Assembly: GCF_040267685.1 (NCBI RefSeq)
Contig: NZ_CP158367.1
Location: 2,542,001 to 2,606,000, forward strand
Source of the DNA: Proteinivorax tanatarense
GTDB taxonomy: Bacteria; Bacillota; Proteinivoracia; Proteinivoracales; Proteinivoracaceae
Direction: 5' to 3'
Length of the DNA stretch: 64,000 bases
The notes under the pieces were generated by a model. That model was not told the origin of the DNA. It saw only the letters and a list, made by a program, of their open reading frames with translations, and did no database searches. Position numbers and translations under genes: made by a program. Numbering within the stretch: position 1 is the stretch's first letter; every line of letters begins with the position of its first letter. This document shows, piece by piece, positions 5,161 through 57,499 of this stretch.

Positions 5161-6843
5161 CTATTGTTTATTTAGAAAATATTTAAATTTATTGTATGCT
5201 GTAATAATATTTGCCCCCTTATTTTCTTGATCTTCAGATTTTATGCCTATATAATCTCTGTATGTTGCATTTTCCAAAACCTTTTCCGCGTGGTTATCCA
5301 CTATTTTATCTAGAGAATTGTACCATTGAGAAATTTTCTCTCTTTTAGAATCAGTCGGCTTTATTGAAGAGAGCCATTCCCTAAACGGTTGATCAATTGC
5401 ATAGTATAAATCTTCCACCCCCCTATTAACAAACTGATGATTTGAATCAAGCTTTCTAATATTTCGAACATCTACCAAAAACCTTCGATAAGTCCCCCCA
5501 ATAACCTCTTTTGTACGGTCAACCGCTTCATTAATTCGTATTAACCAGCCATCATCTGCTGAATCCGTTAATACTAAGTCATTGATCTTTAAAGAGTCGT
5601 AAATTTCATCTACAGGCAGCCAGGATATTGGCTTTCCATCATGTTTCATGCTGACAGATTCTATAGTCATATCAAAGTTATTTATGCTCTCGCTGATATT
5701 ATCTATCCAATTAATAATGCTTGGACGCTCTTGATCTTCTTTGTAGGAATTCGGTAGGGTAATTAACCCAAAAGATCTCCACACGGACTGTTCCGCTTGA
5801 TGTTTTCTTGGTGTATGTTTGCCCTTGTTTTCGCCACTTTTATTGTAGCGCCAAATGGTCATCGGTTCTAAAAACTGATCCTGGTGGTCAATATCTGTCA
5901 ACTTTACAGTATTAAAAGAAAAAGCTTTGCTTATATCTGTTTCAGGGTCAATATAGATTGCTCTGCTCCAATTTGTATATAATTCAGCAATATTATTTAC
6001 CTTGTTAATTGAAAAAGAACGATCAACTATATCTTGACTGCTGTATTCCCAACATGGTTTTTGTTTATATCCTATGTATTCGCTTTTAGGATGGACAAGT
6101 ACAAGGTTTAATAATAAAGTTTCGCATAAATTGTTACCTTTTAAAAAGACTCCTCCAATATCAAACAACCATCCTTTAGAAGACTTATATTTTTCTTTTC
6201 CGAAGATCGCTTTATCTGACAGTCCCGAATATCCCTGATAAGTTACCAACCAACGAGCAATTTCAGGTGCAGTCAATATCTCTTTGTTTGAACTATGCTT
6301 AGGTGAAAATAAAGCTATTTTATTTTTATTTCCACTTTCTGAAACTAAACGGTTTATCGTTTTGCCGGAAACGAAACTTGCCTTTTTTCTACTGATTTTA
6401 TCTGGTGCAATGACTGCTTCTGTCACTTGATAAAATGGAAGTTTATCATCAAACAGATAAAAGCGATCATGCCAAATATTTAAATATTGATAAATGATAT
6501 CTGCAAATTCTTTGTTTTGCCACATTTGATTCCAATTTCTGTATAAATCTTCCGAATAATCTTCTACATCTTCTTCATCTATAGTGGAAATTTGCCGCAA
6601 ACGATCATCTATTTTAAAATAATGATAGGGCTGGCCATCTGCATCAAATCTAGAAAACACAGTATGCAAAATAGCTAATAACACTCGAAGAACAGCAAAG
6701 TTCTGAGTTGGCGAATCACCGGCTAGATCTTTGTATTGATTGGCATTTTCAAATAAATCGATTAGAGAAACTTCTTTTGTAGTCCCTTTTTCATCCGTCA
6801 AAACAGATATCCAAGGTTCTTCAATCAAATTAAACTTTCCCAT
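5161..6843 (-). CDS. cse1: Cse1 (CasA) Cascade large subunit
   Basis: Recognises the PAM and recruits Cas3. The 560-residue protein opens FNLIEEPWISVL, the family signature. It also contains SPTQNFAVLRVLLAILH and GQPYHYFKIDDR near the start, and later QSVWRSFGLITLP, matching the WR..L.L segment of CasA proteins. AAGGAG is placed 7 bp ahead of the ATG. It is separated from cas3 by only 4 bp and from cse2 by 18 bp, so it is part of the same operon. Confidence 0.95.
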   Translation of the reverse strand: MGKFNLIEEPWISVLTDEKGTTKEVSLIDLFENANQYKDLAGDSPTQNFAVLRVLLAILHTVFSRFDADGQPYHYFKIDDRLRQISTIDEEDVEDYSEDLYRNWNQMWQNKEFADIIYQYLNIWHDRFYLFDDKLPFYQVTEAVIAPDKISRKKASFVSGKTINRLVSESGNKNKIALFSPKHSSNKEILTAPEIARWLVTYQGYSGLSDKAIFGKEKYKSSKGWLFDIGGVFLKGNNLCETLLLNLVLVHPKSEYIGYKQKPCWEYSSQDIVDRSFSINKVNNIAELYTNWSRAIYIDPETDISKAFSFNTVKLTDIDHQDQFLEPMTIWRYNKSGENKGKHTPRKHQAEQSVWRSFGLITLPNSYKEDQERPSIINWIDNISESINNFDMTIESVSMKHDGKPISWLPVDEIYDSLKINDLVLTDSADDGWLIRINEAVDRTKEVIGGTYRRFLVDVRNIRKLDSNHQFVNRGVEDLYYAIDQPFREWLSSIKPTDSKREKISQWYNSLDKIVDNHAEKVLENATYRDYIGIKSEDQENKGANIITAYNKFKYFLNKQ

Positions 6844-6847
6844 TTTC

Positions 6848-9586
6848 TCACTCCTTCTCGTAAGTTAGACCATACTTAGTATCATAAGTTAACAAATAGC
6901 CATTTAAACGATATTGATTATGTTCATCAAACACTATTCCAAGTGACCCTCGCAGCCATAAATGATCCTGCCAGTCTTTAAGGTGTCTTAAATTTTCGGT
7001 TTCTAAATCCTTAATTGTTGTATCAATTTTTGGGGGAGAGCTTAAAGCATATGGCAACCTTAGAGTCTGCTGAGCAATTTCTTTTGAAGTTTCAAGGTTA
7101 TCTATTTGGCTAGATAGGTTTACTCCTTTTCCAAATATCCCATAGCCATTCTCGGTTTTCTTAAGAGCAATAACTTCAATCGTTTCATTACTATCGCGAA
7201 CTTGCGCATAAGCGCGCTCCTCCCCTTGATCTGCTACACTTAAATTTAACCATCCAATTAAAGTTTTTTTGCGACTTGTTTTTTGAGCAGGGCGATCAAT
7301 TCTAAATTTTTTAGCTTTCAGCTCTTTCTTTTTAAGCAAATCTTCGCTATCTTGCTTCATCTTGTTATATTTGTCTTGCAATTCTGTTTGAAGCTCTATT
7401 TCACCACTTCCGTACACTTTTTGTACCAAAGGAGATATGTCATTGGGCAGCATTAAGGAATTACTTAAAAAATACTGCGTTCGAGCTAACAAATATCCAC
7501 CATATACATGTTTTGCCCCTTCCTCAAATTCTAATTGTTCACTAGCCCCTATTATATATAAACAGGGTTTTTCGTGGTATGTCGGGCGAATAATTTTATG
7601 ACGGTGAAGTCTCCCAACGCGTTGGAGTAAAAGATCCATTGGTGCAAGGTCACTGATTAAAACATCAAAGTCTATATCTAAGGACTGCTCAATTACTTGA
7701 GTACCTATAATAATCTTTTGCTTCGGACGTTCTGCTCCTTTTCCAATCATATTTATAAGATTATTTTCTTTTTTCACTCGGTCTTGCGCAATAAAATTCG
7801 AATGCAACAATTCAACTTTATCATCACCATACTTAGCAACACAGTATTTAGCCAATTTTTGCGCTCTCTTTACGGTATTGACGATAATCCCAATAATTCC
7901 ATTATGCTCACTTAGAGCATCAATTAATTGATAGAAATCTTCCTCAGCAACTTTTTCCACTGTCACTACTTGGTTTTCGGTTTTTTCAAAATCTAAGACC
8001 TGTTTGACTTGATCGCCGTCCGTATACGTAATCAAAGGGTATGCATCCGTTTGAAATACTTTTTCTTGATTTTGATTTTTATTTACTCTACTTCCTTTCC
8101 CCCGGATATAACTATCAATTAACTTTTTTCTCATATCAGCAGCTAATGTAGCAGATAAGACGATAACGGGTACGCCATAAGCTCCCATCCACTGTAATGC
8201 CCTCTGTAAATACTGCCCCATATACACATCGTAGGAATGAACTTCATCAATAACCACTATCTTTTTGGAAAAACCTAGGTGTCTTAAAGATAAATGTTTT
8301 TGTTTTAAAGCAAGCAACAAGAATTGGTCAACTGTCCCTACTACAAAATCATCTAAAGCTGTTGTTTTTCTCCCTGAAAACCACTCATTTACGAAAACAC
8401 TGCCATTTTCTTCAGCATCTATATTTATATTTCTTGCCAAACTAGTGAACTCTTCATTTAATGCCGCTTTTCCATGTGCTAAGCGAATGGGCAAATTATC
8501 GCCAAGTTCTTCTTGAATGCTTTTCAACCATACATTTATTCTTGGGAAGATGCCGTTAGATGTTGCTTGCGTGGGTAAGCCAAAAAAAAGCCCACTGCGA
8601 CCAGTTTTTCTCGCTAACTGCTCTACTCCAACCAGTGCCGCTTCAGTTTTCCCAATTCCCATTGGGGCCTCCAAAACATAGATTCCAGGATCATCCGATT
8701 GCTCAATCACATCTGATAAGGATTGTTGCACATTGCGAGGCTCATCAAAACGAAAGCGCTTAGCGTATAGCTCCTTAGGATCGGAGTAATAGTTCGCTTC
8801 CCATTGATAGCTTTTAAACCATTTTTTCCAACCATTTAAAAACCTAGTTTCTTGGTCCTCTACTTCCATGTCATCAATTTCAATAAGGGGAAAGTATTCT
8901 TCATTACTTGCAATCCAATCTGCCATAATCAGAAGTCCTGATAAGATGGCTTGACCCGATTGAGACACTTTAGGTAAGTCTTCTGGACTTAAAAACCCTG
9001 ATGCCTCAAGTGCCCATTGAATCAAATCATCTTGTGAGCTTTTCCATTTTTGGTAAATATTTTTATTTGATGATTCCTCTTGGAAGTAATTTTCTGTATA
9101 AGCTGATTGATTTTCATATTGTTTTTTATAATCAACCGGTTTACCATGATGCGCCCCAATAATTGTTCCAATGTCATCACCAAACCCACGCCAAGACAGC
9201 ATAGCTTGTCCTGCAAGAGCATGCGGACTCTCCTTTGAGGAGGGAAGACAAAACCGAGAAATTCCAATAAAGCCTCCTTTTTCTAACCGTTCTAATAGTC
9301 GAAGATCCAATTCATAAGGGAAGCCTTTTTTAATTTGAAAAGCGACACTATTCTTGCCACAATCGTGTACGGCTGCCAAAAATTGAACAAGTTGCTTAGC
9401 GATTGCTTCACTTGGTTCACTTAATGAGTCGATAATAAGCTGTCGTTGCCCGTTGTTTAGCCACAACTCCCATAGCCTTTCAGAGACACGAAGGGTATCT
9501 TCTAGGTGTTGGTTTAAAGGCAACCAGAAATATCTTCCATACTTTTCACTCTTCTTCGCCCATAAATACGGATTAACAGTTGGTAT
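6848..9586 (-). CDS. cas3: Cas3 HD nuclease-helicase, type I-E
   Basis: Degrades target DNA recruited by Cascade. The HD nuclease part has AAVHDCGKNS, SPHALAGQAML and IGAHHGKP (metal-binding His/Asp residues). The SF2 helicase has Walker A EAPMGIGKTEAAL, the DEVH box VVIDEVHSYD, VLSATL and, in the C-terminal half, the motif LLLQRVGRLHRH. Coding similarity to Cas3 N-termini continues upstream of the first usable start: the codons from 9586 to 9524 read IPTVNPYLWAKK and GRYFWLPL, which belongs to the family. No ATG, GTG or TTG occurs in frame there. A GAGGTGAT site sits 7 bp before an ATA at 9584-9586, so I take that as the start; the alternative is TTG at 9523, which would remove conserved residues. 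Confidence 0.93.
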   Translation of the reverse strand: MPTVNPYLWAKKSEKYGRYFWLPLNQHLEDTLRVSERLWELWLNNGQRQLIIDSLSEPSEAIAKQLVQFLAAVHDCGKNSVAFQIKKGFPYELDLRLLERLEKGGFIGISRFCLPSSKESPHALAGQAMLSWRGFGDDIGTIIGAHHGKPVDYKKQYENQSAYTENYFQEESSNKNIYQKWKSSQDDLIQWALEASGFLSPEDLPKVSQSGQAILSGLLIMADWIASNEEYFPLIEIDDMEVEDQETRFLNGWKKWFKSYQWEANYYSDPKELYAKRFRFDEPRNVQQSLSDVIEQSDDPGIYVLEAPMGIGKTEAALVGVEQLARKTGRSGLFFGLPTQATSNGIFPRINVWLKSIQEELGDNLPIRLAHGKAALNEEFTSLARNINIDAEENGSVFVNEWFSGRKTTALDDFVVGTVDQFLLLALKQKHLSLRHLGFSKKIVVIDEVHSYDVYMGQYLQRALQWMGAYGVPVIVLSATLAADMRKKLIDSYIRGKGSRVNKNQNQEKVFQTDAYPLITYTDGDQVKQVLDFEKTENQVVTVEKVAEEDFYQLIDALSEHNGIIGIIVNTVKRAQKLAKYCVAKYGDDKVELLHSNFIAQDRVKKENNLINMIGKGAERPKQKIIIGTQVIEQSLDIDFDVLISDLAPMDLLLQRVGRLHRHKIIRPTYHEKPCLYIIGASEQLEFEEGAKHVYGGYLLARTQYFLSNSLMLPNDISPLVQKVYGSGEIELQTELQDKYNKMKQDSEDLLKKKELKAKKFRIDRPAQKTSRKKTLIGWLNLSVADQGEERAYAQVRDSNETIEVIALKKTENGYGIFGKGVNLSSQIDNLETSKEIAQQTLRLPYALSSPPKIDTTIKDLETENLRHLKDWQDHLWLRGSLGIVFDEHNQYRLNGYLLTYDTKYGLTYEKE

Positions 9587-31287: not shown

Positions 31288-31325
31288 TAAAAATAACCCG
31301 AAGAGCTTTTACACTCCTCGGGTAA
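31288..31325 (-). terminator. Terminator after the amidase gene
   Basis: ACCCGAGGAG and CTCTTCGGGT form the stem on the minus strand, followed by TATTTTTAT. It separates the prophage lysis genes from the recombinase operon. Confidence 0.85.
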
Positions 31326-31340
31326 TTAATACTGTTGAAT

Positions 31341-32309
31341 TTATTCATACCTCATATACGCATCAAACCCTGCTTTTTGCAAGCGGCCCATTAACGCCTT
31401 TGCATTTTCCTCTTTGCCAAAAGCACCCACTTGAACTCGATATAGTTTTTCCGGTGCTGCCCCTTTTTCTTCTTTTTCCACATCCACCAGTTCTAAAATC
31501 TCTTTATCAACCCATGTCATAATGCCCGGTGATTCGTCCCCTGTACGCTTGTGGATTTTCTTTCCTAGCAGTACCGCCTTTCTACCACCTCTTAAGACTG
31601 TTTTTCCGTTCGAGCGATTTTGGGTGATTTTATGATTCGTGCTTTTTACCCAAGACGGAATTTGGGGCCCGTTAGGATAATAACGATTTGCAGCGTCTTT
31701 GATTTTCACAATATCTCCTACATAAAAATCTTCATTTTTAGGATTTTTTAACCCTATCTTCACAGCAGCTCTAAAACTGTCCATACTCTCTCCATGCTTA
31801 GGAAACCAATGATCGGGGTCTGCATGATTGCTGGCAATCCCCTTCCTGTGACCTTCAGCGTGACCAATGATATCTTTTTCAGTTAAGCCGTACTTTTTGC
31901 ATAAAAATACACATAAGTCTACTGCATTTTTCCAAGCAGCTCTAAAATAAGCTTCATTTTTCTTTACGTCATAGCCAACCATGGTAGCACCTCGAAATGA
32001 ATGCCCTGCAGGTTCACAAATCTCAAAACCAATGTGGGTATTATTCGCAGCTCCTCCTGCATGCCAGCCCCTATGGTTCCAAGGCAGGTACTGCCATATC
32101 TCTTTATCATCTAAAAAGGCATGGACACAAACCTGCCTGTTAATCTCTCCGGCTCTGTAGGATTTATTCCACCTACTAAACCAGGAACCTGCCATCACTC
32201 CCGGTGTTACTGTAGAATGAACCATGATACCTTTCGGTGTAATGGTTCTACCTGCTGTATAGCAATCATTTCTAGTCATAAATTTAGTTTTTAAATTACT
32301 TAACGTCAT
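31341..32309 (-). CDS. N-acetylmuramoyl-L-alanine amidase with C-terminal SPOR domain (endolysin)
   Basis: Phage lysin cutting the amide bond between muramic acid and the peptide stem. Amidase_2 (PGRP-like) domain in residues 1-170: GIMVHSTV holds the first zinc His, GWHAGG and HIGFEICEP are family marks, and NHADPDHWFPKHG gives the later ligands. An SH3-like part (FYVGDIVKIKDAA and onward) follows, and the end YRVQVGAFGKEENAKALMG is a SPOR peptidoglycan-binding domain. ATG 32309 has GGGAGG 6 bp ahead; the frame overlaps the holin end. Confidence 0.94.
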   Translation of the reverse strand: MTLSNLKTKFMTRNDCYTAGRTITPKGIMVHSTVTPGVMAGSWFSRWNKSYRAGEINRQVCVHAFLDDKEIWQYLPWNHRGWHAGGAANNTHIGFEICEPAGHSFRGATMVGYDVKKNEAYFRAAWKNAVDLCVFLCKKYGLTEKDIIGHAEGHRKGIASNHADPDHWFPKHGESMDSFRAAVKIGLKNPKNEDFYVGDIVKIKDAANRYYPNGPQIPSWVKSTNHKITQNRSNGKTVLRGGRKAVLLGKKIHKRTGDESPGIMTWVDKEILELVDVEKEEKGAAPEKLYRVQVGAFGKEENAKALMGRLQKAGFDAYMRYE

Positions 32310-32712
32310 CCTCATCCTCCCCTTCTTTAAGTTGTTCTAAGACCTCTACCAGTTTTTCTGGTACTGGCAAACCAAGTCTTGTTGCATTTTCTGTGATGCT
32401 AATTCCTTCATTGGAAAGATAAAAAAAGATGACAGCCGTGCGGATAGCACCTCCATCACCAATTACGTTGCTGTCGATTACATTGGCAATCCCTACAAGT
32501 ACAAAAATAACTACCTTTTGAAATATCCCCTTAGCACCTATATCGCTTGAGAGATGCCTTTCGACTATAGCGCACATCACACCTAAAATATAATCCACAA
32601 CTACAAAGGCTATTAAGGCATACAAAAAGCCATCAACTCCCCCTAAAAACCACCCGATATAACCGCCGACTGCAGCAAATGCGATTTGAGCGTAGGTCAG
32701 TATTTCCTTCAT
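32296..32712 (-). CDS. Phage holin (phage_holin_4 / TcdE-type)
   Basis: 138 residues with three or four membrane segments: AQIAFAAVGGYIGWFLGG, FLYALIAFVVVDYILGVMC, VVIFVLVGIANVIDS and AVIFFYLSNEG. The segment VVDYILGVMCAIVERHLSS is the family signature, and the charged tail ends EGEDEDDVK. It makes the membrane pores that release the adjacent amidase. AGGGAAG precedes the ATG, and a terminator lies just upstream, so holin and amidase may have their own promoter or depend on read-through. Confidence 0.92.
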   Translation of the reverse strand: MKEILTYAQIAFAAVGGYIGWFLGGVDGFLYALIAFVVVDYILGVMCAIVERHLSSDIGAKGIFQKVVIFVLVGIANVIDSNVIGDGGAIRTAVIFFYLSNEGISITENATRLGLPVPEKLVEVLEQLKEGEDEDDVK

Positions 32713-32748: not shown

Positions 32749-32800
32749 AAAAGGCGCTTTATGGTAAAAAGGTAGTTAGCCTTTAAATCATAAGCGCCTT
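32749..32800 (-). terminator. Terminator between tail genes and holin
   Basis: On the minus strand AAGGCGCTTATG and CATAAAGCGCCTT form an imperfect stem, followed by TTTTATATAG. It lies in the 100-bp gap between the last tail gene and the holin. Confidence 0.75.
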
Positions 32801-46945: not shown

Positions 46946-48169
46946 CTATCCCTCACTTCCTTTCTTATCTTTTTTAACATAAGCACCTATATCTTCGAGT
47001 TTTAGCATGTTTCCATTCACAGCATAGACATCCCCATGCTCAATAGGATTTAGGTCTTCCAGTTCCCTCACATCGTTGGGACTTAAAAAACCATTTTGAA
47101 TACCAATGCTGTAACCTTCCATTCTAGTCTTATAGTCCCCCCTAAGAAGGCCCTCCACATTCATCTTGAAGAAATAGTCCTTCTGTTCCGATGGTGACAG
47201 CAGGGTCTTTTTCATAGCCATTTCCCAGCGCGAGAGCCAAGGTGTCAGTGTGTATTTCACAAACTCCAAACTCTGCTGCTCAATGTTTGAAAAGCTGGAC
47301 CTCTCCAAATCCCCAATCATATGTGGCGGAATACGAAATATCCTAGCAATTTCATTAATCTGAAACTTACGTGTCTGGAGAAACTGGCTCTGCTCCGGTG
47401 GAATGGTAATGGGTTTAAAGGAAAGCCCCTCTTCTAAGACAGCCACTCGATTGGCATTATTACTGCCCCCATAAACGCTATTCCAGCTATCCCTTACCTT
47501 CCCCGGATCCTTTAGTATACCGGGATGTTCTAATACACCACCGGGGTTTGCACCATTTTTAAAGTAGGTGGCGCCGTATTCCTCTGTGGCGATAGCCATT
47601 CCTATTGCTTGCTTTGCCATGGCAATGGGAGAATGTCCCACCAGTCCATCAAAACCAAGCCCCGGGATGTGAAGCACTTCATAACTTCTTAAGATATTCT
47701 CTTCACTGTCTTTTTGATAGCTATAGTAAATCTCACCACTCTCACTTCGTTTCACCGTCATTTTGTCCGGCATCAGTGGATAAAGTGCCATCACTTTCCC
47801 TCTGCCGTCTCGAATTATCTGGGCATATGCATTTCCCCATAATAAAAGATGGCTCATCAGCGTTTCTCTAAACACAAAGGAGGTCATCTCATCGTTTGGT
47901 GCATCATGGAGCAAAGTGTATAAAGGATGGTCGATTGCTTTTTCTTTTCCCTTATCTGTTCGGACATAGGTGTGAAGCGGTAGTGATGCTATGGTCTCAG
48001 ATAGAATTCTTACACAGGCATAAACAGCAGATGTTTGCATGGCAGTTCGCTCGTCTACATGCTTTCCACTACTGGTTGGACCAAAGAAAAAGCTGTAGGC
48101 ACTCTCCCACATGCTGTTCTTTGGATCAGCTCTTGAATTAAATAACTTTGATATTATCGGTATTTTCAA
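46946..48169 (-). CDS. Phage portal protein, HK97 family
   Basis: 407 residues. Typical text includes VYACVRILSETIASLPLHTY, LLHDAPNDEMTSFVFRETLM, LLWGNAYAQIIRDGRGKVMA, PGGVLEHPGIL and FRIPPHMIGDLERSSFSNIE. It forms the dodecameric DNA channel. The start is a TTG after AGGAGGTGATCAAGT. Confidence 0.95.
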   Translation of the reverse strand: MKIPIISKLFNSRADPKNSMWESAYSFFFGPTSSGKHVDERTAMQTSAVYACVRILSETIASLPLHTYVRTDKGKEKAIDHPLYTLLHDAPNDEMTSFVFRETLMSHLLLWGNAYAQIIRDGRGKVMALYPLMPDKMTVKRSESGEIYYSYQKDSEENILRSYEVLHIPGLGFDGLVGHSPIAMAKQAIGMAIATEEYGATYFKNGANPGGVLEHPGILKDPGKVRDSWNSVYGGSNNANRVAVLEEGLSFKPITIPPEQSQFLQTRKFQINEIARIFRIPPHMIGDLERSSFSNIEQQSLEFVKYTLTPWLSRWEMAMKKTLLSPSEQKDYFFKMNVEGLLRGDYKTRMEGYSIGIQNGFLSPNDVRELEDLNPIEHGDVYAVNGNMLKLEDIGAYVKKDKKGSEG

Positions 48170-48230
48170 ACTTGATCACCTCCTAAAAATGGGCATGAAA
48201 AAAGCATCTAATTTTTATAGATGCCTAAAT

Positions 48231-49445
48231 TTAAGTGGTTCCGCTTTCTATTATTTCGTAAAACAGCTTTCTATATGATAAACCAAGGGATGTACTAACA
48301 ACTTTACACCATGTTTCTTCGCTAATGTTAATGTTTTCTACACACCAAATTTTATAATGACACTCTTTAGTAGTATAATAATCTATCTTAATGTCGCTAT
48401 TAGTATCTTGATATTTAATCCTATAATCATTATGTTCATATTGGTTCTTAGTAAAGTCAATGTGCTTAAATGTTCTTTTATTAGGATAATACTTTCCATG
48501 AATAAAAGTTACATAGACTGGATCCCTGACGCTATCTTCCTGTACATAAGGCAGCTCCTCTATTTCAATGTGCCAAAACTCTTCGTCACGTTCTCTATCA
48601 TAATCTTTCTTAATGACCATTAACAGTTTATTTAAATTTTCTGAGTCTATATGAACAATAATATTTTTATTATTTTCAAGTTGCGTATTATTAAAGTTAA
48701 AATTCAATCCTCTAAATTTCTCAAAACAAAGCAATCGTCTGGTTTTAGCCTCTAACAATGGTATGGACAATCTCTCATCTAATCTCATAAAAAAGTCAGC
48801 TTTTTCTAGTATGACCTCTTCAGATAAAATCTTAAATACAGCCGGCATCTTGTCTGAAAATTCTAATTTTTCTCTATTAACAAAGATGCTGTATAAGTAA
48901 TATTTTTCATCATAAATAAAGCCATCAGAACAAAATTTAATACCCTTAACCTTAGTTAGTTTATAATCTGTGGTGTTATATTGAAATCGCTCTCTGGAAC
49001 AAATTAATCTAAGATCCGATCTATCAAAACGGTATGTGTCTAGTACATAAGCCGCAATAGCACAGCAGATTTTTTCTCTGCTTATGACCACCTCTTCCGG
49101 CATCTTTGTTTCAGAAGATAAAATCTCATGTATTTCTTGTTCATTTAATTTTTTCCCTATATTAGCATTCAATAAGTTTCTGCAAACAAAGAAATACGAA
49201 CTTCTTTCTGTACAGTTGGCTAAATACAGCAGGATTTCTTCAATTGTAATGGAATTGTTTTGCAATATGCACTCTATTTCATTGCAAAACTCCTGCAGAT
49301 AAAAAGGTATCCCTTCCCACTGACCACTAAATAGTCTCCAAAGAGAAAACTTAGGATGAAGATGAAGAGCATAATAACTCAAATCCTCATAATTTTCAAG
49401 ATCTTTAATTTCATCTATTACTATTCCTACTTTTTTAAAGTTCAA
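48231..49445 (-). CDS. Unknown AT-rich protein inserted between terminase and portal (moron)
   Basis: 404 residues starting at a TTG (MNFKKVGIVIDEIKDLEN) after GGGTGGAG. Not recognised. Mostly soluble, with aromatic and acidic residues (HLHPKFSLWRLFSGQWEG, ILLYLANCTERSSYFFV and CYKIWC-like regions). It interrupts the TerL-portal pair that is normally contiguous and is more AT-rich than its neighbours. A minus-strand extended -10 box (TGATATAAT at 49470-49478) lies ahead of it, so it is likely expressed on its own in the lysogen. A defence or exclusion role is a guess. Confidence 0.7.
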   Translation of the reverse strand: MNFKKVGIVIDEIKDLENYEDLSYYALHLHPKFSLWRLFSGQWEGIPFYLQEFCNEIECILQNNSITIEEILLYLANCTERSSYFFVCRNLLNANIGKKLNEQEIHEILSSETKMPEEVVISREKICCAIAAYVLDTYRFDRSDLRLICSRERFQYNTTDYKLTKVKGIKFCSDGFIYDEKYYLYSIFVNREKLEFSDKMPAVFKILSEEVILEKADFFMRLDERLSIPLLEAKTRRLLCFEKFRGLNFNFNNTQLENNKNIIVHIDSENLNKLLMVIKKDYDRERDEEFWHIEIEELPYVQEDSVRDPVYVTFIHGKYYPNKRTFKHIDFTKNQYEHNDYRIKYQDTNSDIKIDYYTTKECHYKIWCVENINISEETWCKVVSTSLGLSYRKLFYEIIESGTT

Positions 49446-49515: not shown

Positions 49516-51072
49516 TCAAAACACCAAAACACCCCGTTCATCATAAACCGACTTCCCACCATGATTTCCGTCATTTCTAATAGCCCTGTCAAGTGCCATA
49601 ATCATTGCCACAGCACCATCTATTTTTTCACTAGATTTTGCTTTATCTGGCTTGATATTTCCAGCAGGGTCCGTTCTGATATGAATGTTGTCCATCATCC
49701 AGCTAAGCACTGGATGCCCTCCATGGGCTATTCTTTTCTCTAACGCCAGTTTCATTAACTCTCTTGTGGGCGGCGACATATCTTTAAATCCTTGTCCAAA
49801 AGGCACCACAGTGAAACCTGCTCCTTCTAAGTTTTGAACCATCTGCACTGCTCCCCAGCGATCAAATGCGATTTCCTGTATATTAAACCGAGTTCCTAAG
49901 TCCTCAATGAATTTTTCTATAAAACCATAGTGTATGACATTGCCTTCAGTCGTCTCAATATGACCTTCTCTTTCCCAAATATCGTAAGGGACATGATCTC
50001 TACGTACTCTTAAATCCATGTTATCCTCTGGAATCCAAAGGTATGGCAATACATAGTATTTATCATCTTCTTCCGTTGGTGGAAATACCAATACAAAAGC
50101 GGTAATGTCCGTAGAGCTTGATAAGTCCAACCCACCGTAGCAGATTCTACCCTTTAGTTTCTCAGGCTCTACTGGGATGCTACACTTCTCCCAAGTTTCC
50201 ACAGGCATCCACTTGATATTTTGCTTAAGCCACATATTCAGTCGCAGCTGCTTAAATAGAGCTTCTTCTGCTGGGTCCTGTTTGGCCTGCTGGAAGTGTT
50301 CCCTAACTCTTTCTATTTTGATGGTGTGGCCAAGGCTTGGATTGGCTTTATACCAGTTCTTTTCATCCTCCCAGTCATCACCTTCATCAAGGCCATAAAT
50401 AATTGGTAAGAATGTATCGTCTATCCTTTTGCCATTTAAAATGTCTTTCGCCTTTTGGTGCATCTCCCAGCCATAACCTCTTAGCTTATCTCCTGCTGTA
50501 GTAAGATAAATAAAGAGCGGCTCTTCTCTAGCATCTCCTGAGCCGGTAGTAAGCATCCTAGCAAGGTCAGCATTAGGATAGGTCCAAATCTCATCTAGTA
50601 TTACACAAGAAACATTCAGCCCCGATTTGGATTTTACATCGGAACTTAGAACTTGATAAAAACTCCCAGTTCTCGGATAGACAATTCTTTTCGTGGACAT
50701 TACTGTTTTAGTTACATTCGATAAGGTCTGGTTCCCTTCTACAAAGTTTACGCTGGTATTGAAGATGATGCTTGCTTGCTGACGATCACAAGCGGCAACA
50801 TAGACCTCTGCGTTGGATTCACCATCAGCAAGGAGCATGTAAAGGGCAATGGCTGCGGCGATTTCACTTTTGCCCGATTTTTTAGGAATTTCCACATACA
50901 CCGTGCGATACTGCCTAGTTCCATCTTTCCTTACCGTTCCAAAAGCTTTTTTTATTAAATCAATCTCCCAAGGAAGTAGCTTAAAAGGTTTTCCCGCCCA
51001 TTTCCCTTTGGTAAGTTTTAACTGCTCAATAAACTTAATAACTCTATTGGCTTTTTCTTCAGAGTAAGGCAT
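49516..51072 (-). CDS. terL: Terminase large subunit
   Basis: 518 residues. The packaging ATPase has YVEIPKKSGKSEIAAAIALY (Walker A-like, SGKS), VILDEIW (Walker B) and LTTAGD. The nuclease part starts at CYGGLDLSSSTDITAFVLVF with the first Asp, and FDRWGAVQMVQ contains another. It cuts and packages DNA together with TerS and the HNH protein. Start: ATG 51072 with GGGAGG 8 bp upstream. Confidence 0.95.
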   Translation of the reverse strand: MPYSEEKANRVIKFIEQLKLTKGKWAGKPFKLLPWEIDLIKKAFGTVRKDGTRQYRTVYVEIPKKSGKSEIAAAIALYMLLADGESNAEVYVAACDRQQASIIFNTSVNFVEGNQTLSNVTKTVMSTKRIVYPRTGSFYQVLSSDVKSKSGLNVSCVILDEIWTYPNADLARMLTTGSGDAREEPLFIYLTTAGDKLRGYGWEMHQKAKDILNGKRIDDTFLPIIYGLDEGDDWEDEKNWYKANPSLGHTIKIERVREHFQQAKQDPAEEALFKQLRLNMWLKQNIKWMPVETWEKCSIPVEPEKLKGRICYGGLDLSSSTDITAFVLVFPPTEEDDKYYVLPYLWIPEDNMDLRVRRDHVPYDIWEREGHIETTEGNVIHYGFIEKFIEDLGTRFNIQEIAFDRWGAVQMVQNLEGAGFTVVPFGQGFKDMSPPTRELMKLALEKRIAHGGHPVLSWMMDNIHIRTDPAGNIKPDKAKSSEKIDGAVAMIMALDRAIRNDGNHGGKSVYDERGVLVF

Positions 51073-51087
51073 CGCCATCACCTCCCT

Positions 51088-51561
51088 CTAGTTTTTTACC
51101 CTTAACAGTTCCGCCATTGGATCTTCTTTAGCTGCTTCTTCTATATCCATTCTGATACGGGTCCTTGCAGCAGGGGTAAGTCCAAACTCAGAACAAAAGT
51201 CTTTCATCACTTTAAGATAAGTCTGAGCAATAGACACCTGTGGTACCTGCTGAATATATCCGGATGGGGTCTTAAATATGGTCCCATGTTTCGATAGAAA
51301 TTCCTCCGCTTCCTTCCATCTAGCATAGGCCTGACAATATCCTGAAAACGCAGTCATATCTACCTTAGTGAGAATTCCCATAGACTCTAGAACCTTCGCC
51401 ATTCGCTTCCACTCTTTCTTTGCTTCCGGCTCCAGCCATGACGGGCATTTAGGTGCTCTTTTTTCTGGCTTTGGTTCTTGGTCATTTAGGGGTTTTCTTC
51501 CTGGGTTGCCTTCCAGTATTTTCAGTTCTGTTGGTTTTGGTTTTCTACCTCTTTGGGTCAT
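51088..51561 (-). CDS. terS: Terminase small subunit, P27 family
   Basis: 157 residues: RGRKPKPTELKILEGNPGRK at the start is the P27-family signature, followed by PSWLEPEAKKEWKRMAKVLE and AFSGYCQAYARWKEAEEFL. It binds the phage packaging site. AAGGAGG precedes ATG 51561. Confidence 0.94.
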   Translation of the reverse strand: MTQRGRKPKPTELKILEGNPGRKPLNDQEPKPEKRAPKCPSWLEPEAKKEWKRMAKVLESMGILTKVDMTAFSGYCQAYARWKEAEEFLSKHGTIFKTPSGYIQQVPQVSIAQTYLKVMKDFCSEFGLTPAARTRIRMDIEEAAKEDPMAELLRVKN

Positions 51562-51621
51562 GGCTTTCACCTCCTTAAATAACCAGAAAAAGAGCCTATG
51601 ATGGCCCTTCTTCTTATAATT

Positions 51622-54441: not shown

Positions 54442-55680
54442 TTATTCAGTTACAACATCTTTATATTTCAACTTCTCACCATCTCTAATTAGAAATACAT
54501 CTTCGTCAGTTCCTGCAGCTTCGACATATCTTTTCACAATTACATCCACAAAACGTTCATCCAGTTCAATCCCATAGCAAATTCTATCTGTCTGTTCAGA
54601 GGCAATCCATGTACTACCAGATCCGCCGAAGGGTTCCAACACAATACTATTTGTTAAGCTTGAGTTTTTAATTGGGTAGGCTACTAAGGGGACTGGCTTC
54701 ATGGTGCTATGAAGTTCGCTTTTTGAAGGTTTGTCAAAATTCCAGACAGTGGTCTCTGCTCTTCCTGCGTACCACTTATGTTTTCCTTTTTTCTTCCAGC
54801 CAAATAAGCAAGGCTCATGCTTCCACTGGTACGGACTGCGACCTAATACCAAAGACTGTTTCACCCACTGGCAGACCCCAGAGAGGTAAAATTCTGCATC
54901 TTGAAAGGCCTTTCTAAAAATATGGCCTTTGGTATCTGCATGGAATACATAGATGGAAGCGTCATTGGCCATATGATTTTCCATGTTAGTAAAGGCGTCT
55001 AACAGAAATTTATAGAACTCCTCATCCTGTAGGTTGTCATTTTTGATAGTTCCTTGGCTTCCATCGTAGGAAACCCCGTACGGTGGGTCCGTCACCACCA
55101 GATTGGCTTTCTTCCCATCCATCAATTTTTCATAGGTTTCAGCTTTGGTGCTATCCCCACAAATGAGTCGGTGTCTGCCTAAGAGCCATATGTCACCTTG
55201 TTTAGATATAGTTTCTTCTTCTAAGGTTGCATCTACATCAAAGTCATCATCTTCCACTTCTTTATCGTGTATATTCGAGAATAGCTCATCAATCTCAGCA
55301 GCATTAAAGCCAGTAAGCTCCACATCGAAGTTCAGGTCTTTTAAATTTTCTAGTTCCACTGCTAAAAGTTCATCATCCCAGCCTGCTTCAAGGGCCAGTT
55401 TATTATCTGCGATGATATAGGCCTTCTTCTGTGCTTCAGTTAAGTGCTCCACCATCACACAAGGCACTTCTTTTATACCCTCTGCCTTTGCAGCTTCACA
55501 GCGACCATGCCCTGCTATAATATTTTTATCCTTGTCGATGAGTACTGGATTTACAAATCCAAACTCCCTAAGGCTACTGCGAATTTTATTAATCTGGTCC
55601 TTACTATGGGTCCTGGCATTGTTGGCATAAGGGATAAGTTTATCCACCGGGATGAGTTTCATTTCTTCCGTTGTTTTCAC
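54442..55680 (-). CDS. DNA adenine/cytosine-N4 methyltransferase with N-terminal ParB-like domain
   Basis: 412 residues. Residues 5-100 are a ParB/Srx-like nuclease fold (PVDKLIPYANNARTHSKDQI, AGHGRCEAAKAEGI). The methyltransferase has the catalytic VVTDPPYGVSYDG and, after circular order, VLEPFGGSGSTWIASE (SAM loop). Phage enzymes of this kind protect DNA from restriction or mark the packaging region. The start is GTG 55680 with GAGG 8 bp upstream; GTG 55689 overlaps the site. Confidence 0.93.
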   Translation of the reverse strand: MKTTEEMKLIPVDKLIPYANNARTHSKDQINKIRSSLREFGFVNPVLIDKDKNIIAGHGRCEAAKAEGIKEVPCVMVEHLTEAQKKAYIIADNKLALEAGWDDELLAVELENLKDLNFDVELTGFNAAEIDELFSNIHDKEVEDDDFDVDATLEEETISKQGDIWLLGRHRLICGDSTKAETYEKLMDGKKANLVVTDPPYGVSYDGSQGTIKNDNLQDEEFYKFLLDAFTNMENHMANDASIYVFHADTKGHIFRKAFQDAEFYLSGVCQWVKQSLVLGRSPYQWKHEPCLFGWKKKGKHKWYAGRAETTVWNFDKPSKSELHSTMKPVPLVAYPIKNSSLTNSIVLEPFGGSGSTWIASEQTDRICYGIELDERFVDVIVKRYVEAAGTDEDVFLIRDGEKLKYKDVVTE

Positions 55681-55710
55681 AAGCTTCACCTCTTTTTAAA
55701 TTTGGGTATA

Positions 55711-55757
55711 AAAAAACACCCTTAAACCCCACTATTTCTAAAGGTTTTACAGGTGTT
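55711..55757 (-). terminator. Terminator upstream of the methyltransferase gene
   Basis: On the minus strand AACACCTGTAAAACC pairs with GGTTTAAGGGTGTT across a 13-base loop and is followed by TTTTTTATA. It lies downstream of the cos-like segment and would limit read-through into the structural operon. Confidence 0.75.
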
Positions 55758-56544: not shown

Positions 56545-56886
56545 TTAATATTTATACTCTCGATACTGATCCTTGTTCCTTGTCTTTCTGTCATGACATC
56601 TTTTACAAAGAGCCTGCCAGTTGCTTTCATCCCAAAATAGAAGTTCATCCCCTCTATGAGGAATAATATGGTCCACAACGGTAGCTTTTATAAGCTTGCC
56701 TTCAGAATTGCATCTAACACAGAGGGGATGCACTTTTAAGAATCTCGCTCTAGCTTTCCTCCACCTACTGTCATAACCACGCTTAGCAGCACTGGGTCTG
56801 TCATCGGTATGTATATCACAGTACCTTTTACCCGTTAGATTTGGACAGCCTGGATGCTTGCATGGGCTCTTTGGTTTTCTTGGCAT
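56545..56886 (-). CDS. HNH endonuclease (phage packaging)
   Basis: 113 residues. ATVVDHIIPHRGDELLF gives the first H, NWQALCKRCHDRKT the N and last H, and CVRCNSEG plus CKRCH bind zinc. An N-terminal KHPGCPNLTGKRYC cluster is a second zinc knuckle. HNH proteins next to terminase genes in HK97-like phages are needed for cos cleavage. Preceded by the structured leader 56911-57034. Confidence 0.93.
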   Translation of the reverse strand: MPRKPKSPCKHPGCPNLTGKRYCDIHTDDRPSAAKRGYDSRWRKARARFLKVHPLCVRCNSEGKLIKATVVDHIIPHRGDELLFWDESNWQALCKRCHDRKTRNKDQYREYKY

Positions 56887-56910: not shown

Positions 56911-57034
56911 AAAGGTATAGATAAAGCCCTCGGGATATTTATCCTTTGGGCTCTGGTGCTGCGTTTCCCGGGAGTCGTGGTCGATCTATCCCTTAGGCGT
57001 ATTCAGACAACACACCGTATTTTTCTATACCTTT
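56911..57034 (-). ncRNA. Candidate structured leader RNA of the prophage late genes
   Basis: A 10-bp perfect closing stem, AAAGGTATAG with CTATACCTTT, brackets 124 bases. Inside, AGCCC-AAA-GGATA-AA-TATCC-CGA-GGGCT is a two-part hairpin, and CCC/GGG-rich blocks allow further stems. It has no coding frame. It starts about 20 bp after a plausible promoter (57036-57075) and ends 24 bp before the HNH gene, so it would be the 5' leader of the HNH/packaging operon. No known RNA family is recognised. Confidence 0.5.
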
Positions 57035-57076
57035 GCATCTTATACTATAGCACATATTAGATATGACATTCACTGA
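57035..57076 (-). promoter_or_regulatory. Likely late-gene promoter with direct repeats
   Basis: Minus strand: TGTCAT, 18 bases, TATAAG (or TATAGT four bases earlier), followed by the structured leader. Just upstream the motif GTCAGTAAAT/GTCAGTGAAT is repeated with a 10-base period, suggesting a binding site for the adjacent regulator. Confidence 0.45.
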
Positions 57077-57079
57077 CAT

Positions 57080-57499
57080 TTACTGACGTTTTTTTATTTT
57101 TTCAATTTCTTTTAATGCTTTTCCGTGAGCCCTAAATGCCGTCCTTATATCAAACCCTATCTCTCTTGCAACCTCGTCCCAGCCCTTACCATTAATATAA
57201 CGTTGTTCCAGAATTATTTGGCTAATAGGGTCATCCACCTGGTTAATGGTCCCTGTGATTTCAGCCTTGACATCCACCAAACGGTCAATATCTTCGTTTA
57301 TTTCATTTTCCAAATCGACTATCTTTGCTACAGTATTTTCTACATGGCTTTTGATATTATTACCGCCGGACACTTTTTCTTCTGTAAGGTTAGCACCCAC
57401 TTTAGCAGCCAGAGCTCTTAGGGTATCTAGCTGTTCCAGTTTACTGTTTATTCTTTGATCAAGCCACATGGCCTGTGATAAATATTCCTTTGCGTTCAT
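57080..57499 (-). CDS. DUF1492-like / sigma-70 region-4-like phage regulator
   Basis: 139 residues. N-terminal helices AMWLDQRINSKLEQLDTLRA, then a C-terminal helix-turn-helix: ISQIILEQRYINGKGWDEVA followed by EIGFDIRTAFRAHGKALKEI, which matches the region 4-like fold of DUF1492/ArpU-type phage late regulators. It is placed directly ahead of the promoter and leader of the packaging operon. Starts with an ATGA overlap on the previous gene. Confidence 0.82.
   Translation of the reverse strand: MNAKEYLSQAMWLDQRINSKLEQLDTLRALAAKVGANLTEEKVSGGNNIKSHVENTVAKIVDLENEINEDIDRLVDVKAEITGTINQVDDPISQIILEQRYINGKGWDEVAREIGFDIRTAFRAHGKALKEIEKIKKRQ

Follow-up and report, generated by a model that had tools for sequence, protein, structure and literature searches.

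The window analysed here is a stretch of 64,000 nucleotides of the Proteinivorax tanatarense genome (contig NZ_CP158367.1, positions 2,542,001 to 2,606,000), and the element under study is a structured leader RNA at positions 57034–56911 of the window, at the start of a prophage late operon. All features lie on the minus strand, in the order regulator gene, three direct repeats, extended -10 element, leader, HNH endonuclease gene, an open reading frame (ORF) of 171 amino acids (aa), a hairpin, a ParB-methyltransferase gene and, further on, the genes of the small (TerS) and large (TerL) terminase subunits. The regulator (57080–57499, 139 aa) is a late transcriptional regulator of the RinA/Ltr/ArpU type, matching PHROG 36 ("transcriptional regulator", E 1e-28) and DUF1492 (E 1e-7), and the early genes to which it belongs are on the same strand immediately upstream of the leader. 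The HNH endonuclease (56545–56886; PF01844, E 8e-11; PHROG 144, E 4e-37) is the first late gene, and it is followed by the ParB/DNA-methyltransferase fusion (54442–55689; PF01555 and PF02195; PHROG 498, E 7e-192), TerS (51088–51570) and TerL (49516–51081), with PF05119, PF20441 and PF03354 matched across both terminase subunits. A first reading of the letters alone (the sequence-only reading) had placed the leader right after a regulator gene and before HNH and terminase, where late operons start, and these domain matches, together with the layout in relatives, bore this out.

The three 10-bp direct repeats (57058–57087), which are the presumed regulator sites, read GTCAGTAAAT (57087–57078, overlapping the 3′ end of the regulator gene), GTCAGTGAAT (57077–57068) and GTCATATCTA (57067–57058), the last being degenerate. 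They are followed by the extended -10 element TGCTATAGT (57044–57052), the register of which is the same in nearly all aligned relatives, and transcription probably starts near 57037. The promoter-like sequence with a repeated 10-base motif that had been noticed earlier was thus recovered, with the extended -10 element and the third repeat unit added to it. In 26 distinct promoters of relatives, three repeats were found with an exact 10-bp period, the identity being 0.71 at lag 10 compared to about 0.25 at other lags. The repeat word varies among phages (GTCAGT, GTCACT, GCGACT, GCCACT, GGCAGT, GAGACT, GACACT) and is constant within a promoter, and it tracks the recognition helix of the adjacent regulator: an Arg at one position of the helix is accompanied by C as the third base and a Ser by G or A, the exceptions being loci L147 and L013 (the latter a mixed promoter). 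Because the repeat word follows the recognition helix, there is good evidence, from sequence comparison, that the neighbouring regulator reads the 10-bp repeats. The helix-turn-helix residues and repeat words of about 50 loci amount to a simple specificity code that is usable for predicting the sites of RinA-type regulators.

The locus has the properties of a RinA/Ltr-type late promoter, namely a regulator of this family directly upstream, direct repeats before the -10 element, and packaging and virion genes downstream. RinA of phage phi11 matches PHROG 36 (E 2e-38), the same family as the window regulator. Among real family matches, the window regulator has only DUF1492 and PHROG 36/248, and its domain and PHROG matches do not place it in a known Q family.

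The window segment 57045–56887 was found to fold at -43.8 kcal/mol (z = -3.95), and none of 200 shuffled sequences was equally stable. The outer stem, P1, joins AAAGGTATAGAAAAA (57034–57020) to TTTATCTATACCTTT (56925–56911) by 14 of 15 pairs, including a perfect run of 11 bp. The earlier description of a leader closed by a 10-bp stem with a hairpin inside therefore holds for the stem and for the apical hairpin at 56951–56926 (P6 below), whereas the single-sequence minimum free energy fold inside P1 differs from the conserved fold because the window copy is divergent.

The conserved fold was derived from relatives collected in two ways: viral contigs were searched for HNH proteins, and both viral and genome contigs were scanned for the conserved word RGGAAACGCAGCATTC. 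Together these yielded about 45 occurrences that share the layout, and the majority of them were aligned. (A 16-base core word gave 119 matches in genome contigs, many of which occurred by chance in unrelated phyla and without flanking structure.) The consensus is an RNA of about 125 nt with a three-way junction, the ends of which are closed by P1 (GGUAUAGAAAAA paired with UUUUUCUAUGCC). Between P1 and P3 there is a helix P2 and then a 7-nt bulge (ACACCAU); P3 (AUGCUG/CAGCAU) leads to an internal loop with the nearly invariant AUA.GCC and GGAAACG, and then come the helix P4, a small apical hairpin P5 and a G+C-rich hairpin P6. The U-tract directly behind P6 doubles as the 3′ strand of P1. In the window, alignment, consensus fold and pair counts place the core P3–P5 at 56956–57013, with P3 as GUGUUG/CAGCAC, the internal loop with the conserved GGGAAACGCAG, P4 as CC+GGGA/UCCC+GG, and the P5 hairpin. 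P6 (56926–56951, GCCC...GGGC, -9.5 kcal/mol) is a terminator-like hairpin followed by TTTATCTAT. This copy has lost P2, and where members usually have TTTTTCTAT it has a weaker U-tract.

In an alignment of 23 sequences, 94% of the cells pair and 13 of the 39 pairs are changed on both sides, a result that 0 of 500 shuffles reached; sliding the partner columns by 1–3 positions lowers the pairing to 39–51%. A larger alignment of 67 members (55 distinct), which is biased towards the model because it was fitted to it, has compensatory changes in 16 of the 39 pairs (123 cells), again matched by 0 of 500 shuffles. In this alignment, 98% and 97% of the cells are paired in helices 1 and 2 (P1), and helix 8 (P6) has changes on both sides in 3 of its 5 pairs. 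The check by covariation in homologues that had been proposed with the sequence-only reading thus came out in its favour. A covariance model (R1) built from the 23 relatives, with the window excluded, recovered the window copy at 57033–56911 with 68.9 bits (E about 5e-14). Segment 57034–56911 is confirmed as a member of a conserved structured RNA family.

This RNA is common to many phages of clostridia-like bacteria. At E 0.01, R1 matched 17 of 398 genomes of the phylum, in 14 genera, two of these matches being weak and discounted; the matches in G252 and G347 (E 0.004–0.005) were a plain terminator and a core-less hairpin and were excluded as members. The named hosts include Tepidanaerobacter, Anaerotalea, Youngiibacter, Pelotomaculum, Alkalibacterium and Clostridium tetanomorphum. 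BLASTN of the phage collection gave one good match (PV036459.1) and one marginal match. A search of Rfam 15 with the window copy and a consensus-like member gave no family at the gathering threshold, and the RNA is a structured family absent from Rfam. The staphylococcal cabRNA (PMC10686824) was ruled out as the same RNA, as it sits within terS-terL instead of in a leader. In most members the stop codon of the regulator gene is about 46 bp ahead of the RNA, and HNH, ParB-methyltransferase, TerS and TerL then follow. When RNA presence was mapped on a regulator tree, 5 changes were needed compared to 27.7 with shuffled labels, on a tree of few columns in which near-copies raise the clustering. 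Therefore, the RNA and a regulator subclade travel together. In one genome contig (L275 of G308), two identical RNA copies, near 6355–6490 and 8540–8675, lie on either side of a transposase-like gene (570 aa), away from any phage genes; the repeats are complete at one copy and mostly lost at the other.

A hairpin with a U-tract between the late promoter and the first late gene is not peculiar to the window. Using a simple rule of energy and U-tract, we found a terminator-like hairpin within 230 nt at 58 of 70 distinct loci upstream of HNH relatives, compared to 75 of 350 same-strand control windows (Fisher p 2e-22, not corrected for relatedness). In 29 of the 58 short leaders, HNH begins no more than 45 nt past the end of the stem, and in the window 40 nt past the P6 stem; therefore, transcription must generally come through the terminator, and little or no room is left for a promoter between it and HNH in these short leaders and in the window. 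A separate promoter and terminator scan called no terminator at the leader or at 55716, because of an internal loop in P6 and the long loop of the 55716 hairpin.

The same layout was found in three experimentally studied phages. There is a terminator-like hairpin behind rinA of phi11 (GGGTTGGCTGATTATAGCCAATCC TTTTTT, -13.2 kcal/mol with T6), behind ltr of phi13 (ACTCTCACATTAAGTGAGGGT TTTTATTTTTAT) and before terS of TP901-1 (AGGTTGTCCAGTGGGCAGCCT TTTATT). Among their close relatives, a promoter-proximal terminator is present in 21/21 (RinA), 23/23 (phi13-type Ltr) and 51/67 (Alt) cases, the RinA set having been recounted by distance because the automatic call of the next gene was often a spurious ORF. 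Stricter removal of duplicates gave 12/12 (RinA), 19/19 (Ltr) and 56/61 (Alt, in a wider window), and in each regulator group the frequency exceeded that in controls drawn from its own loci (p between 2e-8 and 3e-29, relatedness uncorrected). Two further observations were made in these phages. The RinA-controlled leader of phi11 (L286, about 5415–5425) contains CTGCGTTTCCC, the exact reverse complement of the family core word GGGAAACGCAG, perhaps by chance, and two or three sequences that resemble tRNAs, with arms of the GGTTCGA type, occur in the alt-terS interval of TP901-1 (L284, about 1130–1510) and in its relatives.

Terminators are also found further into the late operons. In loci with the RNA (the long form) there are 33 terminators per 19.6 kb of late intergenic sequence compared to 3 per 10.4 kb of early (upstream) intergenic sequence, and in loci without it (the short form) 45 per 19.3 kb compared to 9 per 11.6 kb; one of the late terminators often lies directly behind HNH. 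Besides P6 and the operon end, the window late operon has three intergenic candidates. The first (55716–55756) is a stem with an internal loop followed by T7 (-12.8 kcal/mol, U-tract score 5.0), 27 nt ahead of the ParB-methyltransferase start; the second (48203–48225, GGCATCTA...TAGATGC plus a T run) occupies the gap between ORFs 48231–49445 and 46946–48169; and the third (32752–32799, -17.8 kcal/mol) is strong and precedes ORF 32296–32712, which is holin-like by position. The operon ends in a terminator at 31296–31323 (-18.3 kcal/mol), behind an amidase-like gene (31341–32315). The sequence-only reading had named a terminator at 55711 as one for polymerase to pass. That terminator lies at 55756–55716, but the first one to pass is P6, the 3′ hairpin of the leader itself.

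Several features around these hairpins were recorded in passing. The terminator at the end of the window operon (31353–31281, minus strand) is a weak R1 match (E 0.015); its outer stem is P1-like and its tail reads TTTTTATGCC. A hairpin design ACGCC..AAA..loop..GGCGT with T6–7 recurs just behind HNH in L013, L020, L050, L062, L065, L075 and at 55756–55716 of the window, possibly as one family. A second RNA hairpin, with a variable stem and the conserved loop ATCCTTTCA, lies between terminator and HNH in L016 (2938–2975), L017, L021, L062, L070, L076, L080 and others; it has no Rfam match at the gathering threshold, and its loop is complementary to the GAAAGGA-type ribosome binding site that follows closely, which might make the hairpin a translation switch. 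The gap between the leader RNA and HNH is a hotspot of accessory genes (L282 7877–8809 and L281 6254–7174, both minus strand; L091, L094, L097, L108, L004, L003; also L278 and L280), which by eye are Abi_2-like, SocA/Panacea-like and other toxin-antitoxin-like, HTH plus ImmA-like, and AbiEi/AbiEii-like. In the second prophage of the genome from which the window comes, the RNA is followed by an Abi_2-like gene.

The RNA family, its structure and position, the repeats that match the recognition helix and the terminator-like hairpins are established; what we infer is that P6 acts as a terminator, that polymerase gets past it and which factor would be responsible. The best explanation is probably antitermination of the late operon, a reading that we hold with modest confidence. 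It is favoured because a promoter is followed by a terminator and then by genes with little or no room for another promoter, and because further terminators lie within the operon. In Gram-positive bacteria, the presence of intrinsic terminators within an operon has served as an indication of processive antitermination (PMC8955417). In phi13, all late genes, even those with their own start sites, need Ltr and its promoter (PMC13123087); the authors describe this as activation and do not mention termination.

In the proposed mechanism, the RinA/Ltr-type regulator would bind the three repeats and activate the extended -10 promoter, and the transcript would fold at once, its 3′ hairpin P6 and U-tract acting as an intrinsic terminator. 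Any polymerase that lacks the modification for late transcription, whether it had initiated leakily or read through the regulator gene from the early operon, would stop at P6. After induction, polymerases from the late promoter would pass P6 and the later terminators, antitermination being licensed at the promoter or in the leader. In phages with long leaders, the core P2–P5 is a candidate for an antitermination element that acts in cis, either by itself or together with the regulator, in the manner of put or conAn, whereas in phages with short leaders the regulator (Q-like) or another phage protein would have to antiterminate. The points for the core as agent are its strong conservation, its covariation, its co-inheritance with a regulator clade, and the precedents of put (PMC9378689) and conAn2 (PMC8955417).

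Several results weigh against this interpretation. Most leaders at HNH loci are short and without the RNA core, which is therefore not generally required, and the relatives without it face the same terminators, which speaks against the core as the agent. P6 of the window, with its weak U-tract, may terminate poorly. P1 pairs bases past the U-tract, which fits a read-through product but equally a stable RNA. P1 pairing was considered as a general trait of short leaders and rejected, as own strands did not differ significantly from swapped ones (p = 0.31), although a few short leaders pair well. Candidate -10-like sigma-pause elements in the initially transcribed region, of the kind used by Q, were enriched at some offsets, in related sequences only. 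The loci and phages are related, and the counts ignore kinship, so that the p-values overstate the certainty. The suggestion in the sequence-only reading that the leader RNA lets polymerase pass terminators is thus supported as to a conserved late-operon leader with downstream terminators that need passing, whereas a put-like action by the RNA itself is one candidate mechanism. Because the core-less relatives also have promoter-proximal and further terminators, the antitermination that they seem to need must come from something else, plausibly the regulator. A reasonable synthesis is that the regulator would be loaded at the promoter in all of these phages and that the RNA core would assist or replace it in one clade.

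Among known systems, the put RNAs of phage HK022 (putL and putR) are likewise phage-encoded folded RNAs, and putL lies directly behind a phage promoter and upstream of the terminators to be passed (PMC9378689). However, put is about 70 nt, consists of two stem-loops, lies in early operons, binds the β′ zinc-binding domain of RNA polymerase and suppresses termination in cis, needs no dedicated protein, and does not end in a terminator, whereas the leader RNA is about 125 nt with a three-way junction, thus differing from put in size and stem-loop number, belongs to a late operon and ends in a terminator hairpin. The conAn2 RNA with ConAn1 of pLS20-type conjugative plasmids is alike by layout, as an RNA of a Gram-positive mobile element with which a long operon begins and which is followed by intrinsic terminators inside that operon (PMC8955417), but there the operon is a conjugation operon rather than a phage late operon and the ConAn1 protein is a processivity factor. 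The EAR RNA of exopolysaccharide operons in bacilli is also an RNA-based processive antiterminator of Firmicutes (PMC8955417); it acts in a chromosomal operon, and the leader RNA has no Rfam match to EAR or any other family.

Lambda Q with pR′ and tR′ shares a regulator gene just upstream of the late promoter, a regulator site in the promoter, a terminator shortly behind the start and the late genes beyond it. In contrast to Q, the window regulator is of another family (PHROG 36/DUF1492), its sites are 10-bp direct repeats, and a structured RNA lies between start and terminator. The loci of RinA (phi11), Ltr (phi13) and Alt (TP901-1) have in common with the window the terminator-like hairpin before the first late gene, although none has the RNA core; the link to PHROG 36 is strong for RinA, weak for Alt (E 0.005) and absent for phi13 Ltr (PHROG 1058). 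These proteins are described as activators, with no mention of antitermination or a leader terminator in PMC13123087 and PMC9867676; an earlier mention in the original papers on the RinA and Ltr families (Nucleic Acids Res. 2011, 2013) is possible.

Among other explanations, it is conceivable, if rather unlikely, that the leader is a trans-acting small RNA, with the stop at P6 freeing a compact RNA of about 130–140 nt with paired ends that acts on host or phage targets. The compact closed fold, the highly conserved core and the terminator at the 3′ end are as expected of such an RNA, and a few copies lie away from phage late genes (beside toxin-antitoxin-like genes in G308, and flanked by lipoprotein and radical-SAM genes in G054). 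However, nearly all copies keep their place between the regulator and the late genes, the bases past the U-tract that P1 pairs would be only partly present in the terminated RNA, and transcription of HNH still has to cross P6. A little less probable is that P6 is only an insulator that stops early-operon transcripts, which a strong late promoter overruns by leakage while the folded core protects or tunes the 5′ end of the late mRNA. The early genes on the same strand just upstream and the weak U-tract of the window agree with this, but the terminators are often strong, as in phi11, and more of them follow downstream, so that leakage would be compounded, and there are few terminators in early intergenic regions. 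A structural or packaging RNA like the pRNA of phi29, working with the neighbouring HNH and terminase proteins, is improbable: the RNA nearly always lies ahead of the packaging module, and P1 with the three-way junction resembles pRNA in outline, but there is no Rfam match and the core is missing from many related phages whose packaging module is the same. That the fold arose by chance, or that the segment codes for a short protein, is refuted by the covariation and by member lengths (20/16/14 modulo 3) with no frame open in common, in keeping with the earlier claim that the leader is non-coding, the 29-aa hypothetical protein annotated inside the leader RNA in one phage record (PV036459.1, L090 2586–2675) being probably spurious.

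The current picture of late control in Gram-positive phages is one of promoter activation by RinA/Ltr/ArpU/Alt proteins. We tentatively raise the possibility, which we regard as less probable than antitermination at this locus, that such late "activators" are antitermination systems. On this view, transcription from the late promoter would run into a built-in terminator, and resistance of polymerase to terminators throughout the late operon would be conferred by the regulator, which in one clade would be aided or supplanted by a novel class of processive antiterminator RNA. That a terminator separates the late promoter from the first late gene at most loci examined, including those of the three experimentally studied phages, makes the antitermination model directly testable. 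The RNA core would count as a new phage RNA family with covariance support and may be one more RNA-based processive antiterminator in addition to put, EAR and conAn, and the switch-then-stop layout in Staphylococcus and Lactococcus phages suggests a missed anti-stop step in late gene expression.
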